Positions 55,574 to 64,000 of a stretch of 64,000 bases of DNA are shown here, piece after piece; the stretch's first letter is position 1, and each line of letters opens with the position of its first letter. The stretch is from the NCBI GenBank assembly GCA_028283855.1, contig JAPWJX010000003.1, positions 930,001-994,000 on the forward strand, in the 5' to 3' direction. Under the pieces are notes generated by a model. The model was not told the DNA's origin, did no database searches, and saw only the letters and a list, made by a program, of their open reading frames with translations. The stretch is from Verrucomicrobium sp. Lineage in GTDB: Bacteria; Verrucomicrobiota; Verrucomicrobiia; Methylacidiphilales; GAS474. The translations under genes were made by a program, and so were the position numbers.

Positions 55574-56333
55574 GGCCCACGATGAAGCCCAGGAGGGTCT
55601 TGAGCAAGCGCGCCATTTCGGCCTGGCTCTTGATGTAGAACTGGGCCTGGGACGATTCCCGGTAACCGATGCGGACGCCGATGATGCGCGGATCGCCCAG
55701 GGAGAAGGCGTCCTCGTCCGTGTCGTCGTCCCCGACGTAGAGGGCCGCCTTGGCCCCGCTGCGGGAAAGGAGTTCCTGAAGGGCGATTCCCTTGTGCGGA
55801 CCTCCTTCGGCCACCAGGTTGACGACGCACTTTCCCAGGATGACGCGCGGCGGCGGGTCGAGTCGGGCGGATAGTTCCAGGATGCGCTGTTTGGCCTCTT
55901 TCTTCCGGCGGGAATGGCGGTAGTGGAGGGCCAGGGAGAGGGCCTTGTCTTCCAGGACCACGCCTTCCCGCTCCTCTTCCGGCGGCAGGGACGCCTCCAT
56001 TTGCAGCCGCCAGGAGCGGCACAGCTCGGCGAAGTGGCGCAGGGGGGCGGGATTGGGCATCGCCCCCTCCAGGCCGTGGTTGCCCACCAGGTAGGCGGGC
56101 TCGAAGGGGAGGCGGCGGCGGAGGTCGACGACGCTGCGCCCGGAGACGACGGCCAGCGGCACGCGGCGGCCCAGCTCCTCCGTCAGCTCCGCGACGGCGG
56201 CGGTCATGGCGGCGTCCTCCGGGGCGTCGACGATGCGGGAGAGGGTCCCGTCGTAGTCGAAGGCGAAGAGGGTGCGGGTGAAGCTGAGCGACTCGAGGAT
56301 GCGCAGTCCCGCTTCGGAAAAGACCGGGATCAT
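55545..56333 (-). CDS. otsB: Trehalose-6-phosphate phosphatase
   Basis: A 262-residue HAD-fold phosphatase with LFAFDYDGTLSRIVDAPEDA (D-Y-D-G-T-L nucleophile pair), LAVVSGRSVVDLRRRL, LVGNHGLEGAMPN, and VGDDDTDEDAFSLG (motif IV). It removes phosphate from trehalose-6-phosphate to give trehalose, a stress protectant. Start ATG 56333 overlaps the otsA stop (ATGA). Its end overlaps marR. Confidence 0.93.
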   Translation of the reverse strand: MIPVFSEAGLRILESLSFTRTLFAFDYDGTLSRIVDAPEDAAMTAAVAELTEELGRRVPLAVVSGRSVVDLRRRLPFEPAYLVGNHGLEGAMPNPAPLRHFAELCRSWRLQMEASLPPEEEREGVVLEDKALSLALHYRHSRRKKEAKQRILELSARLDPPPRVILGKCVVNLVAEGGPHKGIALQELLSRSGAKAALYVGDDDTDEDAFSLGDPRIIGVRIGYRESSQAQFYIKSQAEMARLLKTLLGFIVGHATGEPLRR

Positions 56334-58552
56334 GCCGCGGCCTCTCCTCCGGCGGTGCGGATCTTGCCGCGCTGGCGCATGCGGGCGGCGTCGATGAGCA
56401 TCTTGCCGGCCCAGCGGTAGACGTTGAATTCCTTTACCAGCGCGGCCATGTTCTGCATGCGGTCCCGCTGCTCCAGCGGGGGCATGGTCAGGGCCAAGTG
56501 GAGCGCGGCGGCGCACTGGTCGATGTCGTAGGGGTTGACGATGAGCGCCTCGGAAAGCTCCCGCGCCGCGCCGGTGAACTGGCTGAGGATGAGGACGCCC
56601 TGCTCGTCGTCGTTCCGCGCGGCGACGAATTCCTTGGCCACCAGGTTCATGCCGTCGTGCAGGCTGCTGACGAAGCAGAGCTCCGCGGCCCGGAAGTGCT
56701 CGAAGACGGAGTGGGCGTCGTGGTGCTCCACTTTCAGGACGATGGGGTCGTAGCCGGGGCGGCCGAAGCGGGCGTTGATCCGCTCCGCCAGCTGGCGCAC
56801 CTCCTGGTCGAGGGCCTGGTATTGGCCGATGGTGGTGCGGCTGGGCGCGGCGATCTGGATGAAGGAGAAGCGGCCGATCCATTCCGGCTGCAGCTCCAGC
56901 AGGCGTTCCACGGCCAGGAAGCGCTCCTGGATGCCCTTGGTGTAGTCGAGCCGCTCCACGCCGATCCCCAGGAGGCGTTCCTCCTCCATGCCGTTCATCT
57001 TGCGGATGTGGCGGCGGCACTCCCGCACGGAGCGCCCGGCGGTCTCCCAGCGGGGCGGCCACTCGATGGAGATGGGGTAGCGGTTCACCGCGCAGAGCTG
57101 GCCGCCCAGGGTGACGGTGGAGTGCTCCCGGTCGATGCGGGATTCCAGGAGCCGGTCGACGGAGTCCAGGAAGTTGTTGCAGTGGTAGCGGGTGTGGAAG
57201 CCCAGGATGCTGCTGCCCAGGAGGCCGCGGAGGATCTCCTCCCGCCACGGGCAGATGCCGAAGGACTCGGCGTTGGGCCACGGAATGTGCCAGAAGGTGA
57301 TGATGGTGGCGCGGGGCAGGCGCCGGCGGACCATCTCCGGCAGGAGGGCGAAGTGGTAGTCCTGCACCAGGATGACGGGGTTTTCCGTGCGGGCTTCCTC
57401 CACCACCGCGTCGGCAAAGCGCTCGTTGACCCGCACGTATTGCTGCCAGTCGCTGCTGCGGAAGATGGGCCGCGTGTGGGCGATGTGGCAGAGCGGCCAG
57501 AGCCCCTCGTTGGCGAAGCCGTAGTAGTAGCCCTGCTCCTCCTCCTTGGAGAGCCAGATGCGGCGGATGGAGTAGAAGGGGTCTTCCGGGGGGACGCGCA
57601 CGTGGTCGCGGGCGTCGACGGTCTCCCGGTCGGCGTCGCCGCTGCCGTGGGCGATCCAGGTGCCGGAGCAGGCGCGCATGACCGGTTCCAGCGCGGTGAC
57701 CAGGCCGCTGGCCGGGACCTGGACGATGATCTGCCCGTCCTTCCCGTGCCGGTGGATGTAGGGCTCCCGGTTGGAGACGGTGAGGATCTCCTCCCCGGCC
57801 AATTCCTTGTGGAGGATTTCCTTGAGGGCCAGCGGGCTCCAGTTGATCTGGTTCTCGTCCCGCACGTGGCGGCTCACCTCCAGCTCCTTCACCAGGGCGC
57901 GCAGCTCCTTGGCGATCGGCTGCAGCTCGGGGGAGCGGATCTGGCTCACCGGCCGCAGGAGGCCCTCCCCGCGCATGAGCGCCTGCATGCCGGAGATCCA
58001 CCCCTTCCAGCTCAGCTGGGCCACCAGCACGGTGGTGAGGGAGACGATCAGGCCGATGCCGACGAAGAGGTAGAAGATGCCCTTCTTGGTGTCGTCGCTC
58101 CGGTGCTGGATGAAGCTCATGTCGTGGACCAGGAGGAGGCGGCCCAGGGCCTGCCCTTCGTTGCCTTGCAGGGCGCGGGAGGAGACGTAGAGGGGGCCGC
58201 TGGTCAGGACGACGCGGTGCGGGACGGGGGAAAGCAGGTCGGCGGGCGGGAGGTCCCGGGGGAAGCTTTCCGTTTTGTACAGCAGGCGGCCCGCCGGATC
58301 GCAGACGCCCGCCGCGTAGAGGCGCTCGTCCCGCACCATGCGGCTGAAGAGCATTTGGATGCGGGCGGCGTCCTTGGTCTCCACGAGGGAGGAGATCGTG
58401 TCCTCCAGGGAATTGAAGATCAGCTCGGAGCGGGCGTTCAGGTCGCGTCCGAACCACTTGGCGCTGAAATGGTCGACGACGGGAATGAGCGCGTAGGCGA
58501 TGGCCGCCAAAACGAGGATCAGTGGCAGGATGAAGCGGAGGGAAAGGCGCAT
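56330..58552 (-). CDS. otsA: Membrane-anchored trehalose-6-phosphate synthase
   Basis: A 740-residue protein. Residues about 1-240 form a sensor-like module: helix at 7-25, periplasmic part with [20 protein letters not shown] and [13 protein letters not shown], second helix near 173-193 and a HAMP-like/coiled stretch. The rest is GT20: [56 protein letters not shown] and [18 protein letters not shown]. It makes trehalose-6-phosphate from UDP-glucose and glucose-6-phosphate. Usual OtsA (about 450-500 residues) lacks the sensor part. Start ATG 58552; first gene of otsA-otsB-marR. Confidence 0.92.
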
Positions 58553-58592: not shown

Positions 58593-60179
58593 ATGCATAA
58601 AGCGCGTTTGCCTCCTTTGCCCGGAGGGCGCACGCTGGATGCCTTGATGAACAAGGCCGTCGAATCGCTGCTGGCGCGGGCCGTCCAGGCGCATCAGGCG
58701 GGGAAGATTTCCGCCGCGCGGGTGCAATACCAGCAGGTGCTCCGGCAGGCCCCGCAGCATCCGGTGGCGCTCAATCTGCTGGGCGTCACCCATCTTCAGG
58801 AAGGGGAGACGGAAAAGGGCCTGGGCTTCATCGACCGGGCCCTCTCCTTTACGCCCCGCTACGCGGAGGCGTGGTGCAACCGCTCCGCCGCGCTCAAGGC
58901 GCTGGGCCGCCATCTGGACGCGGCGGAGGCGGCGCAAAAGGCGCTGGCCCTCAATCCCGAATATCCCGAGGCGCTCAACAATCTGGGCGCCGCCCTCCAC
59001 GAGCTGCGCCGCTACGGGGAGGCGGCGGAGGCCTGCCGGCGCGCCGTGGCGCTGCGGCCGGGCTATGTCGACGCGTGGAGCAACCTGGGCTCCGCCTGCA
59101 AAGCCCTGCGCCGCTACCCGGAAGCGGAGGCGGCCTACGCCCGCGCCATCGCGCTCCAGCCTTCCTTTGCCGACGCCCATCACAATCTGGGCGCCGTGCT
59201 GGAGGAAACCAACCGGCACGACGCGGCGCTGGCCTCCTACGAGCGGGCGCTGGCCGCGCAGCCCGGCCACGTCGAGGCGGCGTGGAGCCGCGGCCTCCTT
59301 TTTTTAAGCCAGGGCCGCCTGGAGGAGGGGTGGCGGATTTACGAGCGCCGCTGGGAGCGGAAAAAGATCCGCCCCCTTCATCCCTCTCCCTGGCCGCTCT
59401 GGCTGGGGGAAACGCCGCTGGAGGGGAAGCGCCTCCTTATCCAATACGAGCAGGGTTTCGGCGATTTCTTCCAGATGGCCCGCTATTTCCCGCAGCTCCA
59501 GGCGCGCGGCGCGCGGTGCTTTCTCCAGGTGCCGGAGCCGCTCCGGGCGCTGGCGGCGCGCAATTTCCCGGAGATGGAGCTCCTGGGCCCGCGGGAAAAC
59601 CCGCCGGAGGCCGACTGCCGCATCCCGTTCATGAGCCTGCCCCGCGCCTTTGGCGGCATTCCCGCCGCCACGCCTTACCTGGCCGCCGATCCGGCGAAGG
59701 CGGCGGCCTGGCGCGCGCGGCTGGGGGAAGGGGACTTCCCGCGCGTCGGGCTGGTCTGGCGGGGAAACCCGGAACACGCCAACGATCACAACCGCTCAGC
59801 CCGGCTGGCCGATTTCCTGCCGCTTTTGGCCCGGCCCGACGTCCAGTGCGTCGTGCTGCAAAAGGACCTCGCGCCGGAGGAGGCCGCCCTCCTGGCCCGC
59901 TATGGGAATGTGGCGGCGGCCGGCCCGCATTTGGCCGATTTTGACGACACGGCGGCCGTGATCTCCCTCCTGGACCGCGTTATCTCGATCGACTCGGCCG
60001 TGGCCCACCTGGCGGGGGCGCTGGGCCGGCCGCTTTCCCTCCTGCTGCCGTTCAGCGCCGATTGGCGCTGGGGAATCGGCCGCGCCGAGACGCCGTGGTA
60101 CCCCGCGGCGCGGCTCTTCCGGCAGGGTGCGCCGGGCCAGTGGAACGGCCCGGTGGCCGCCGCCGCGGCGGGTTCGTAA
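58593..60179 (+). CDS. TPR protein with C-terminal glycosyltransferase-like domain
   Basis: A 528-residue protein. Residues about 20-240 hold about six TPR units (AVQAHQAGKISAARVQYQQV, ALNNLGAALHELRRYGEAAE, AWSNLGSACKALRRYPEAEA, AHHNLGAVLEETNRHDAALA). The rest is GT9-like: RLLIQYEQGFGDFFQMARYF, RVGLVWRGNPEHANDHNRSA and VISIDSAVAHLAGALGRPLS. The TPR-glycosyltransferase layout is like that found for protein or lipid glycosylation enzymes. ATG 58593 follows an AT-rich stretch; ATG 58647 is an alternative start. Divergent from otsA. Confidence 0.82.
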   Translation: MHKARLPPLPGGRTLDALMNKAVESLLARAVQAHQAGKISAARVQYQQVLRQAPQHPVALNLLGVTHLQEGETEKGLGFIDRALSFTPRYAEAWCNRSAALKALGRHLDAAEAAQKALALNPEYPEALNNLGAALHELRRYGEAAEACRRAVALRPGYVDAWSNLGSACKALRRYPEAEAAYARAIALQPSFADAHHNLGAVLEETNRHDAALASYERALAAQPGHVEAAWSRGLLFLSQGRLEEGWRIYERRWERKKIRPLHPSPWPLWLGETPLEGKRLLIQYEQGFGDFFQMARYFPQLQARGARCFLQVPEPLRALAARNFPEMELLGPRENPPEADCRIPFMSLPRAFGGIPAATPYLAADPAKAAAWRARLGEGDFPRVGLVWRGNPEHANDHNRSARLADFLPLLARPDVQCVVLQKDLAPEEAALLARYGNVAAAGPHLADFDDTAAVISLLDRVISIDSAVAHLAGALGRPLSLLLPFSADWRWGIGRAETPWYPAARLFRQGAPGQWNGPVAAAAAGS

Positions 60180-60222: not shown

Positions 60223-60495
60223 ATGACGCCGGAACAGGCTGCCCGTTACCGTGCGCGCGTCGTCCTGGAGGACGGAACCGTCCTGTTAAAGGACCTCTAC
60301 GCGCGCTCGCCGCTGGCTTGTCTCCGCGATTTCTACCACCTGCTCCTGGACGAGATGGGGGAGGCCTTCGCCCTCTTCCCCGACTTCGACGACTGGCTTG
60401 GCCAGACCGCCGCGGAGCACGGCTTGGAAGGCGGCGCCCCGCCGGAGCGGGTCCTCCGCGCGCTCCTGGACGCCGGCACGCTGCGGCGCGACTAA
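60223..60495 (+). CDS. Small unknown protein upstream of M48/UbiB giant gene
   Basis: A 90-residue acidic protein: TPEQAARYRARVVLEDGTVL, LYARSPLACLRDFYHLLLDE, MGEAFALFPDFDDWLGQTAA. It has no signal peptide or membrane helix and no family I recognise. ATG 60223 is preferred to an upstream TTG. It is separated by 18 bp from the start of the giant gene on the same strand and is likely cotranscribed; a chaperone or partner role is only a guess. Confidence 0.6.
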   Translation: MTPEQAARYRARVVLEDGTVLLKDLYARSPLACLRDFYHLLLDEMGEAFALFPDFDDWLGQTAAEHGLEGGAPPERVLRALLDAGTLRRD

Positions 60496-60513: not shown

Positions 60514-63500
60514 ATGCAGAACCTCGAGCACCTCTCCCGTCCCATGATCGACCGTTTCCGCTTCGCCGGGGACGCTGAAACCTGGCCCTCCTTCCAGGAG
60601 GACATGACGCGGATCCTTCTGCGCCTCGACCCGGAGACCTCCTTCCGGCCCATTTTCCACATCACCGACGAGCCGGTGCTCAACGCCTTCACCTTTGCCG
60701 ACGAAAACGGGCAGCAGCACATCGCCTTTACGAAGAAGATGATTGAGTTCTTCGAGAACGAGGACCAGCTGGCCTTCGTCCTGGGGCACGAGCTGGGCCA
60801 CCCCACTTTCCAAAAGAAATACCGCCCCAAGTTCAACGAGCGGACGCAGGAGAACTACGCCGACCTCCACTCGATCGACATGATGATCGCCTCCGGTTAC
60901 CAGGGGGAGCAGGGCGCCGTCTTCTTTGAGCGGCTCCACGCCGCCGTGGTCCAAAAATACCGGGAGAAGCACAAGGACGCCGACAGCAACGAGGTGGACC
61001 GCAATTCCTTCCTGGACCCGCACAGCCCCTTGTCCAGCCGGGTGGAGGCGATCCGCGCCCACATCCACGGCAACTGGGAGCAGGCCGGGCGCTATCCGGA
61101 GCCGCATCCCCTCCACCCCGTTTCGGAAGCCACGCTCCGCCACCACGCCGTCGCCGTCCACCGCAGCACCTGGGATTTGACGAAGAAGGAACAGGGCTTC
61201 GACGCCCTTGCGCCGGAGGCCAAGCTGGCCCTGATCCGCGCCCACATCGAGCAGCCGAACGCCCATCTGCGCCACGCCGCGCTCAAGGAGCTGCCGAAGA
61301 TCGGCCTCGATCCGCAGAATGCCGCCCACGTCGCCTCCATTGACAGCCTGGCCGATTATTACCTGAACATCCGCTCGACCAATCCCCAAGAGGCGGGCCA
61401 GACCGCCCCGGACCAGGACCTCTTTTACAAGCAGGCCCTCGGGGCCCTCGGCTTGCAGTCGGGGCCGCTCGGCGGGCTCAAGGACCTGCAGGCGGGCTTC
61501 GCCGCGCTGGGGGCGGCCCGCGACCCGGAGGCGGTGAAGGCCGCCGCCGCGCAGGTCGGCGCCGCGTGGAAGGAAGTCGAGCAATGCTTCAAGGCGGAGG
61601 AGAAGGACGAGCGCCTTTCCCTGGAGCTGGCGGGATTCCAGGCGTTTCCCAAGCCGGAATTGGTCGACGGGGCCATCCCCCTGCCCGCTCCGTGGGAGCC
61701 GGTGCTGGAAGTCCTCCGCGCCACGCGGGGCGAGCCGGAGGCCCACGCCGCCGTCTTCCAGGCCGCGCTGCTGACCGGCCTCCTGTGCGACCGCCGCTTC
61801 CAGGAATACGGGGAAGGGGAGATGAAGCAGGGCGCCGTCATCCGCCACAGCTCGGAAGTCTTTCAGGCCATGCAGCGCATCCAGCCGGAGAAGCCGGAAT
61901 TTCCCGAACTCTACGCCGGGGAAAAGCCGCTGCGCGCCGGGACGTTCTTCAAGCGCCGGGAGGCGCTCCGCCGCCTGGTCCCGCTGGAGGAGGTCGCCTC
62001 CTTCCGCGACCTGGAGAATTATCTTAACGCCCGCCCCTCCCTCTTCAGCGTCCCCGTGGCGAAGGGGAAGGCGGAAGCCACTCCGGAACGGGTGGCCGCG
62101 CACCAGCAGGTCGTCGCCGCGCTGGGACGGATTTCCGCCGCCCTGCCCGCCGACGCTCCGGAGGAGGCGCGGGAGGAATTTCAGGACCAGGCGCTGGCCT
62201 TTTTCTCCGAAAACCTGCGCGGGCAGGGGCGCACCGCCTTTGACCTGCGCGGCGATCACGGCCCGGAATACCGGGCCGCCCAGCAGCCGTACATCGACTT
62301 CGTCATGTCGCCGGAGAGCCCCTTCGACACGGAGCACCGCCTCCAGTTCCTCCGCTTCCTGCGTTACAACGCCGCCCGCCCGGGGGAGGGGGCCAAGTTC
62401 CTTTCCCTCCTGGGGAGGGAGCTGCCCCCGCGCTTCGCGGAGGCCCTGGCGGAAGGGCTGCCGGACGCGGCCCGTCCCCTGCTGCCCGGCAAGGGTCCCG
62501 CCGCGCCGGAAAGCCCGGTGGAAGACCTCCTGGCCGTGCTGGAATCGACCGCGACCACGGCGGCCATCGCGGAGGAAGCCCTGCACGCCGAGCTGACCGA
62601 TCCGGCCACCGCGCCCGCCTCCCCCTACGCGCCGCAGGTGGACGGCGTCCTTAAAGCCTTCGGCCGCCTTTCCATGCAGAACCCGACGGGCCGCTCCGTG
62701 GCCAGCCCGCGCCTGCTCCAGGACCTGGACCAGCGTTTCCGCGCGTTCGAGGCGCGCCGCCAGGGATCGCCGGAAGGGCGGCTCGCGGAGGTCGGCCCGG
62801 AGCGTTTCCTGGCCCAGGTGCGGCGGCTGGACGGCGTGGGCCTATTGGCCGACAAGCCCCACCTCCAGGAAAAGATGGGGACGGCGGCGCTGGAGACGAT
62901 CGCGGCGCAGCCGAGCTTCGCCGCGCGGCACGGGCTCTACCTTTCCATGCTGCAGGGCAACTCCGTGGCCGATCCCCGCCTGTCCGGGGGGCTCATCAAG
63001 GGCTGGGCGGAAAACCTGCGCGGCCACCTGGGCCTGGACACTCATCCCCGTTTCGTCGACCGCATCCGCCCCTTCCTATTCCAGGTGCGGCATGAGGGGA
63101 ACCGGAAGGAGCTTTTCGAGGAGCTGGCCGTCGCCGTCGAGGCGCAGGAGGCCACCTGCAAGATCATCCGCGACCACCTGGAATTCAGCCGCGGGGAAGT
63201 CTACCCGCTGGGGCTGGCCATCAACGGCGTCGACGAGCTCGTCGGCCTGTGCGACCGCAACCCGCGTGTCCGCTCCGCCACGCTCGACTTCTTCACCAAC
63301 CGCTACAGCGGCGCGGCCACCCACCGTTACGCGGGCGTCCTCCTGCAGGAAGGGGGCCTCGATCCGCTGGCGAAGATGGCGGGGCACGTGGGCCTGGGCG
63401 GCGGAAAATTGACGGCCAAGGACGTCATGGGCGTCGCCCACCTGCCCCTGGCCTCCCTGCACAAGCGCTTCTGGGCCCTGCCCATCAGCGCGCGGGCGGT

Positions 63501-64000
63501 GCTTCTGAGCAATATCATCGTCGGCCCGCCGACGAAGGTCGACCACGCCAAGAGCGAGGCCGCCTTCAACCGGGCGACGGAGCAGATCCTTTCCCAGGTC
63601 TTCCCCGGCGGGAGCCCGGAGGCGCTGGCCTCCCGGGACCTCCTGCGGGCCTTCCACAGGGCCTGCCGCTCCGACACGGAGCGCGGCGTGGTCCTGGGCG
63701 CGCTCATGGCGGGCGAGCAGCGTAGCCACGGCGTCTCCCGCCGCAGCGCGGGCGAGGTGCTGGCCGGCGTCCTGCAGGACATGGGCCCCGCCTATGTGAA
63801 GCTGGGCCAGGCCATCGAGAGCCACCCGCTCACCCCCGCGTCCATCAAGGGCGCCCTCGTCGGCCTGAAGGCCAATGTCGACCGCCCGCCCCGCTGGGAG
63901 ATCTGGGAGCAGATCAACCGGGCGGCGGGGGGCCTCAAGGGGCGGATCGTCCACCTGGGGAAGGCCCTGGGCGCGGCCTCCGTCAACGTGGCCATGGAGG
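60514..64000 (+). CDS. Giant fusion: M48-type metallopeptidase plus UbiB/ABC1-type kinase-like domain (3' partial)
   Basis: The frame from ATG 60514 is open to the end of the window (1162 codons seen). The N-terminal part has a zinc peptidase site: FVLGHELGHPTFQKK (His92, Glu93, His96), third ligand Glu113 in ENYADLHSIDMMIASGY, and DPHSPLSSRVEAIRAHIHG, the M48 pattern with no membrane helix. About 900 residues of mainly helical sequence follow with no recognised domain. At the end, LQDMGPAYVKLGQAIES carries the UbiB hallmark K-x-G-Q (Lys1096 to Gln1099) and LGKALGAASVNVAME resembles the Ala-rich loop (A-A-S near 1154-1156) of ADCK/UbiB kinases. The catalytic kinase core must lie beyond 64000. 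No signal peptide, so probably cytoplasmic. Confidence 0.75.
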   Translation, partial: MQNLEHLSRPMIDRFRFAGDAETWPSFQEDMTRILLRLDPETSFRPIFHITDEPVLNAFTFADENGQQHIAFTKKMIEFFENEDQLAFVLGHELGHPTFQKKYRPKFNERTQENYADLHSIDMMIASGYQGEQGAVFFERLHAAVVQKYREKHKDADSNEVDRNSFLDPHSPLSSRVEAIRAHIHGNWEQAGRYPEPHPLHPVSEATLRHHAVAVHRSTWDLTKKEQGFDALAPEAKLALIRAHIEQPNAHLRHAALKELPKIGLDPQNAAHVASIDSLADYYLNIRSTNPQEAGQTAPDQDLFYKQALGALGLQSGPLGGLKDLQAGFAALGAARDPEAVKAAAAQVGAAWKEVEQCFKAEEKDERLSLELAGFQAFPKPELVDGAIPLPAPWEPVLEVLRATRGEPEAHAAVFQAALLTGLLCDRRFQEYGEGEMKQGAVIRHSSEVFQAMQRIQPEKPEFPELYAGEKPLRAGTFFKRREALRRLVPLEEVASFRDLENYLNARPSLFSVPVAKGKAEATPERVAAHQQVVAALGRISAALPADAPEEAREEFQDQALAFFSENLRGQGRTAFDLRGDHGPEYRAAQQPYIDFVMSPESPFDTEHRLQFLRFLRYNAARPGEGAKFLSLLGRELPPRFAEALAEGLPDAARPLLPGKGPAAPESPVEDLLAVLESTATTAAIAEEALHAELTDPATAPASPYAPQVDGVLKAFGRLSMQNPTGRSVASPRLLQDLDQRFRAFEARRQGSPEGRLAEVGPERFLAQVRRLDGVGLLADKPHLQEKMGTAALETIAAQPSFAARHGLYLSMLQGNSVADPRLSGGLIKGWAENLRGHLGLDTHPRFVDRIRPFLFQVRHEGNRKELFEELAVAVEAQEATCKIIRDHLEFSRGEVYPLGLAINGVDELVGLCDRNPRVRSATLDFFTNRYSGAATHRYAGVLLQEGGLDPLAKMAGHVGLGGGKLTAKDVMGVAHLPLASLHKRFWALPISARAVLLSNIIVGPPTKVDHAKSEAAFNRATEQILSQVFPGGSPEALASRDLLRAFHRACRSDTERGVVLGALMAGEQRSHGVSRRSAGEVLAGVLQDMGPAYVKLGQAIESHPLTPASIKGALVGLKANVDRPPRWEIWEQINRAAGGLKGRIVHLGKALGAASVNVAME

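Follow-up and report, generated by a model that had tools for sequence, protein, structure and literature searches.

Does one bacterial protein join an M48-type metallopeptidase to a UbiB/ABC1-type kinase-like domain and, if so, what has become of the kinase? The question is raised by a giant gene at the right edge of a 64,000-nucleotide stretch of DNA (the window) from Verrucomicrobium sp., positions 930,001 to 994,000 of contig JAPWJX010000003.1 (C3) in assembly GCA_028283855.1, a 2.56 Mb genome that is 95.6% complete and assembled into nine contigs. The initial annotation, made from the letters of the window, had proposed such a fusion for a frame that ran off the right edge. Within the window the gene occupies 60514..64000 on the forward strand (1162 complete codons out of 1534, the frame still being open at the window edge). 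It indeed continues: read in the genome's own contig, the frame that starts with the ATG at 60514 meets no early stop after 64000, which the annotation had named as the outcome that would speak against a fusion, and passes instead through a UbiB-like core (positions 37–307 of the UbiB model TIGR01982), with its stop codon ending at the equivalent of window position 65118 (L004:6619). The product is 1534 amino acids long with zero internal stops. An M48-type peptidase and a UbiB-like domain are thus joined in a single giant protein.

Third-position GC lies between 0.84 and 0.99 in all 100-codon blocks of the gene (the final block holding 34 codons), and codon usage correlates with that of a set of neighbouring genes at 0.77 for residues 1–200, 0.91 for residues 201–1040 and 0.93 for residues 1041–1460, while the whole gene read in the two wrong frames gives just 0.12 and 0.22. 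Because of this third-position bias and these correlations, we regard the frame as a single real coding gene rather than a chance frame in GC-rich DNA. The same data bear on whether two genes might have been fused by a sequencing or assembly error, a suspicion to which a protein seen in a single genome, in a nine-contig assembly, is naturally open. The two domains are, however, separated by approximately 850 residues of same-frame coding sequence with uniform codon bias, which rules out a simple end-to-end join of genes and makes an artefact of this kind highly improbable.

The N-terminal domain (residues 1–185; 60514..61068, forward strand) is readily assigned. It scores 50.8 bits against Pfam Peptidase_M48 (PF01435; gathering cut-off 20.3), which bears out the family named in the initial annotation, and hhalign aligns residues 18–185 to a profile of 13 M48 proteins with a probability of 97.9 and a score of 90.9, as against 22.9 or less for 60 shuffled sequences. 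(The comparison set was drawn from 15 loci, of which L001 and L014 gave no protein and were left out.) A sequence search of the PDB returned, for this end of the protein, the M48 entry 3c37 (E-value 0.0041) and BepA (E 0.038). Both features expected of an M48 enzyme are present where the annotation had put them, namely the HELGH zinc-binding motif at residues 92–96 (60787..60801, forward strand) and, downstream, ENYAD at residues 113–117 (60850..60864, forward strand), whose E113 is the predicted third zinc ligand by sequence and profile alignment. Further along, an H-S-P...R stretch at residues 170–176 aligns with the STHP...R region, STHP being present in 11 of the 13 comparison proteins. 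The active site therefore appears to be complete, and zinc-dependent proteolysis is the probable activity.

The giant protein shares these three features with M48 peptidases such as 3c37 and BepA, but differs from them in having no membrane segment, a huge C-terminal extension and an unusually short gap of 16 residues from HELGH to its ligand Glu. The corresponding gap is 29 residues in two comparison proteins and 58–60 in five, these seven being the members of the set in which the ligand motif could be plausibly placed (in two others its place was implausible and in four it was not located). Two weak matches, one (E 0.0013) to Lit, a phage exclusion protein, and the other (E 0.0018) to a metallo-protease family of PHROGs, were confined to residues 82–129, that is, to the HExxH region. 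We also scanned genome contigs for a DNA pattern encoding HELGH-gap-EN[YH]AD, which demanded CAC for the first His and so was not exhaustive. It found five loci, none of them in the protein's own genome (which such a scan may skip), and all were rejected as relatives of the giant gene: four encode small HELGH proteins (138–142 amino acids) and one an unrelated 838-amino-acid protein from a Bdellovibrionaceae metagenome-assembled genome. The last of these (L037:4086-6602) carries a HELGHCKD-type metallopeptidase-like segment in two copies. A fixed-gap version of the motif found no loci in viral contigs.

The C-terminal domain begins inside the window (residues 1041–1162; 63634..64000, forward strand) and extends past it to about residue 1372 (L004:5502-6130). 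Searched with the whole protein, the NCBIfam model TIGR01982 matches residues 1068–1350 over model positions 37–307 of 436 (35.5 bits, E 4e-9), and with the C-terminal part alone it matches over positions 38–307 at 39.8 bits (E 2.1e-10). The profile search thus assigned the end of the protein to UbiB; an assignment to another family was what the initial annotation had listed as fatal to its proposal. Conversely, a UbiB-profile search of the genome itself reaches the giant gene at E 4.6e-10. Set as a single sequence against a profile built from 33 UbiB-type proteins of the class, the domain gave 299 hhalign columns (residues 1045–1372) at 25% identity, with a probability of 95.3 and a score of 68.0; none of 60 shuffles rose above 24.7, and the reversed sequence reached 15.9. 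Even a single ordinary UbiB-type protein of the class (genome G112) matches residues 1054–1374 at 29% identity (E 3.5e-5), and a hidden Markov model (HMM) built from five such proteins scores 18.0 bits, the best of 1000 shuffles reaching 7.6. The sets of five and 33 are those of six and 34 loci that passed a filter for KxGQ plus a DxHPGN-type motif (L017 and L068, respectively, being left out); in the first UbiB alignment the valid rows are L010, L016 and L023.

Several results pull against this assignment. An HMM from the 33 class proteins scores only 13.3 bits, in the KxGQ region alone, with the best of 1000 shuffles at 9.4. Pfam ABC1, the model that the annotation had itself named, does not match the giant protein even at E 10, nor anything in its genome at E 0.001, and a phmmer search of the PDB with the C-terminal part returned no ADCK or UbiB chain at E 10. 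Finally, the 39.8 bits for TIGR01982 lie far under that model's equivalog cut-off of 487.55, a value attained by none of 384 genomes of the class. As judged from these profile and alignment comparisons, the domain is UbiB-derived, but it is not an intact UbiB.

How far it has departed is seen at individual residues. According to a study of ADCK3, UbiB proteins are marked by a KxGQ motif carried on an N-terminal extension, an ExD motif within an insert and an Ala-rich loop that replaces the Gly-rich one, while the Lys–Glu pair and the catalytic Asp are as usual (PMC4718504). The giant protein retains both KxGQ, as KLGQ at residues 1096–1099 (63799..63810, forward strand), and the Ala-rich loop, as GAAS at residues 1153–1156 (63970..63981, forward strand), in agreement with what the initial annotation had picked out. 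As in the UbiB/COQ8/ADCK (ABC1) kinases, these are followed in order by a QRP strand, an alpha-C Glu (the placing of a four-residue gap decides between E1241 and E1244), the catalytic Asp (D1323) and DxG (here DIG, with its Asp at D1342). On the other hand, the UbiB strand VVKVQRP has become VLLLQRP (residues 1183–1189), so that the beta-3 Lys, which is K in 33/33 of the class UbiBs and was not used for their selection, is replaced by L1185. Likewise ExD has become ELG, with E1235 retained and the Asp replaced by G1237 (the column holds D in 30 of the class UbiBs and N in three), and HADPHPGN has become DYDRHGKQ (residues 1321–1328), in which the metal-binding Asn, found in 33/33 aligned UbiBs partly owing to selection by the motif filter, is replaced by Q1328. 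Relative to UbiB/COQ8/ADCK kinases, then, the giant protein is without the beta-3 Lys, the metal-binding Asn, the ExD Asp and most of HADPHPGN. These losses agree across MAFFT, HMMER and hhalign alignments.

The annotation had looked to an intact catalytic set of K, E and D/N. Its alpha-C Glu, catalytic Asp and DxG Asp are there, while its Lys and Asn are gone. From this combination of residues kept and lost, the C-terminal domain is probably a pseudokinase, and of the 'kinase or ATPase switch' first suggested, the UbiB-like domain stands but its role is weakened to that of a pseudokinase-like regulatory domain. Kinase folds without the canonical residues sometimes still catalyse, which weighs against this reading and keeps pseudokinase status short of proven. 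The domain could accordingly be an active enzyme with altered chemistry, an ATPase or some other transferase, in the manner of those exceptions. The retention of D1323, D1342 and a nearby Glu would suit such an enzyme, as would the unorthodox nature of the family: ADCK3 prefers ADP, and it has been proposed that it does not act as a protein kinase (PMC4718504). Against this, the Lys that orients ATP and the Asn that binds metal have each been lost from columns that are invariant in the aligned UbiBs (for the Asn, partly by selection), and we consider an active enzyme unlikely.

The loss of several invariant residues could also mean that the domain is simply decaying, a formerly useful UbiB copy that drifts without selected function as the tail of another protein, and our finding no relatives of the same architecture (see below) fits this explanation. 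It is harder to square with an unbroken 1534-codon frame that shows strong codon bias over its full length and with the many UbiB landmarks that are still recognisable. We judge decay to be slightly less likely still than altered chemistry, and favour a retained pseudokinase.

Between the two domains lies a middle region (residues 186–1040; 61069..63633, forward strand) in which residues 201–1039 match zero Pfam or NCBIfam models at E 10 and self-BLAST finds no internal repeats. Structure prediction without homologues models it as helices at low confidence, with a mean predicted local distance difference test score (pLDDT) of 41.0 for residues 1–560 and 42.4 for residues 561–1162, and the approximately 850 residues are thus probably helical. 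By the Kyte–Doolittle scale no part of the giant protein is hydrophobic enough to form a membrane helix (the 19-residue maximum is 1.53, with no stretch above 1.6), and the protein is probably soluble and cytoplasmic.

The full architecture has a very narrow distribution. In searches with the full-length protein, it was found, with its own genome included in each count, in one of 60 relatives, one of 62 genomes of the order, one of 384 of the class and one of 387 of the phylum. These samples overlap, and the class and phylum searches limited scoring to two candidates per genome, so that weak relatives may be missed. The homologues with the same domain order that the initial annotation anticipated in related genomes were found at none of these levels. 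Beyond its own genome the protein gave domain-level matches only: one in the order (to the M48 region, E 0.003), nine further matches in the class and ten further in the phylum search. That evolutionary constraint cannot be measured without a homologue of the same architecture counts against our reading of the protein as a working device.

The separate parts are, in contrast, widespread. M48-profile matches occur in 299 of the 384 class genomes and UbiB-profile matches (at E 1e-5) in 187, the latter in frames of 864 amino acids or less among the matches listed, as compared with the 1534 of the giant protein. The giant gene is the sole UbiB-profile match of its own genome at E <= 0.05 (the runner-up has E 0.053), while in a genus-mate (G002) a gene of the ordinary UbiB type matches at E 2e-114. 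Outside chromosomes, phage records gave no match, and a scan of IMG/VR that is sensitive to close relatives only found none. Plasmids yielded two ordinary M48 peptidases with the full-length protein and, with the C-terminal part, one protein of the AarF/UbiB family at E 0.6. Two sets of candidates were rejected. Three long frames that match the UbiB profile weakly in genome G024 of the order (1834, 1003 and 913 amino acids) look by eye like ordinary serine/threonine kinases, and a match elsewhere in the own genome to the proline/alanine-rich tail of the giant protein (E 0.044) falls in what by eye resembles a DNA ligase D-type gene. The 1834-amino-acid frame, in an order-mate genome (L040, 1014-6515, reverse strand), combines by eye an adenylate-cyclase-like region, a serine/threonine kinase and leucine-rich repeats.

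We propose, with a probability of roughly 40%, that the protein is a single-chain M48 peptidase controlled or targeted by a UbiB-derived pseudokinase through a helical arm. In this scheme the N-terminal zinc peptidase (HELGH and E113) would cut protein substrates, the pseudokinase end would sense a nucleotide or a lipid- or isoprenoid-type ligand, or else dock on a membrane or a partner, and the helical arm would pass the state of the C-terminus to the peptidase and so set its activity or its choice of target. That the two ends act on one another is something we infer, and this counts against the proposal. Both domains are of known kinds; searches of the open-licence literature aimed at their join and at the degenerate UbiB module found no published description of either.

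The closest parallel lies in plant plastids, where the M48 peptidase PGM48 and ABC1 kinases occur at one lipid particle, the plastoglobule (PMC12587418; PMC9725166). PGM48 and ABC1 kinases share one cluster of the protein–protein interaction network of tomato plastoglobules (PMC9725166), and PGM48 may work through degradation of CCD4 (PMC12587418). Those are separate proteins, whereas here both kinds of domain are in one chain. A narrower version of our proposal, in which a UbiB-type pseudokinase that reads a lipid, an isoprenoid or a nucleotide gates the protease within one chain, as a one-piece form of the plastid M48 and ABC1 partnership, is speculative and in our view rather improbable as a whole.

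It has long been asked how UbiB proteins make use of ATP. A peptidase fusion that has kept KxGQ and the Ala-rich loop while losing catalytic residues suggests that those parts can act alone as a regulatory or binding module, and such a natural fusion, although known here from one genome, offers proteolysis as a convenient read-out for the role of that module.

The giant gene has close neighbours on both sides. A 90-amino-acid open reading frame (ORF) with coding-like composition (60223..60495, forward strand) ends 18 bases before it, and a 277-amino-acid ORF begins 30 bases past it; by this spacing the three form a probable operon with the 90-amino-acid ORF first, and the two small proteins would be candidate partners of the giant one. 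The 90-amino-acid product matches no Pfam family at E <= 10, its NCBIfam match (E 0.031) is no better than chance, and it has no IMG/VR relative and, among plasmids, nothing better than E 0.3. The 277-amino-acid product has no convincing family match, and a search of six other genomes gave at best E 0.26. Six bases beyond it, on the opposite strand, is a tRNA-Leu(TAA) gene (L004:7490-7574, window equivalent 65989-66073) whose 3' end faces the operon; in G002 the same tRNA is flanked by different neighbours. A 15-kb stretch compared with G001 and G002 gave scattered matches only, including one of 55 bases (E 0.007) within the giant gene.

This setting raises the possibility of an accessory conflict or defence module, a sensor coupled to a protease effector, which would explain the presence of the architecture in a single species. 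An architecture in one genome only, an adjoining ORF with so few matches, the tRNA gene abutting the operon by its 3' end and the weak N-terminal matches to Lit and the PHROGs family could all be taken in this sense. Those two matches, however, span nothing but the HExxH region. No PADLOC model matches at E <= 1, the phage and IMG/VR searches were negative as described above, and no stretch of 14 or more bases from the tRNA region recurs exactly elsewhere in the 73.5 kb examined (a single 13-base copy lies at window 1286). Composition is native, and by eye the wider window looks like ordinary chromosome, with CTP synthase, Kds- and Rho-like genes and similar. Because the surroundings look like this, we do not claim a genomic island, and a defence role seems to us about as unlikely as decay.

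Two genes upstream of the probable operon are of separate interest. The first (56330-58552, reverse strand) encodes a trehalose-6-phosphate-synthase-type glycosyltransferase, with GT20 at residues 256–721, whose approximately 250 extra N-terminal residues open with a hydrophobic stretch and resemble by eye a membrane sensor region. The second (58593-60179, forward strand) encodes tetratricopeptide (TPR) repeats followed by a weak match to glycosyltransferase family 9 (E 0.00036; 20.4 bits, just below the cut-off).

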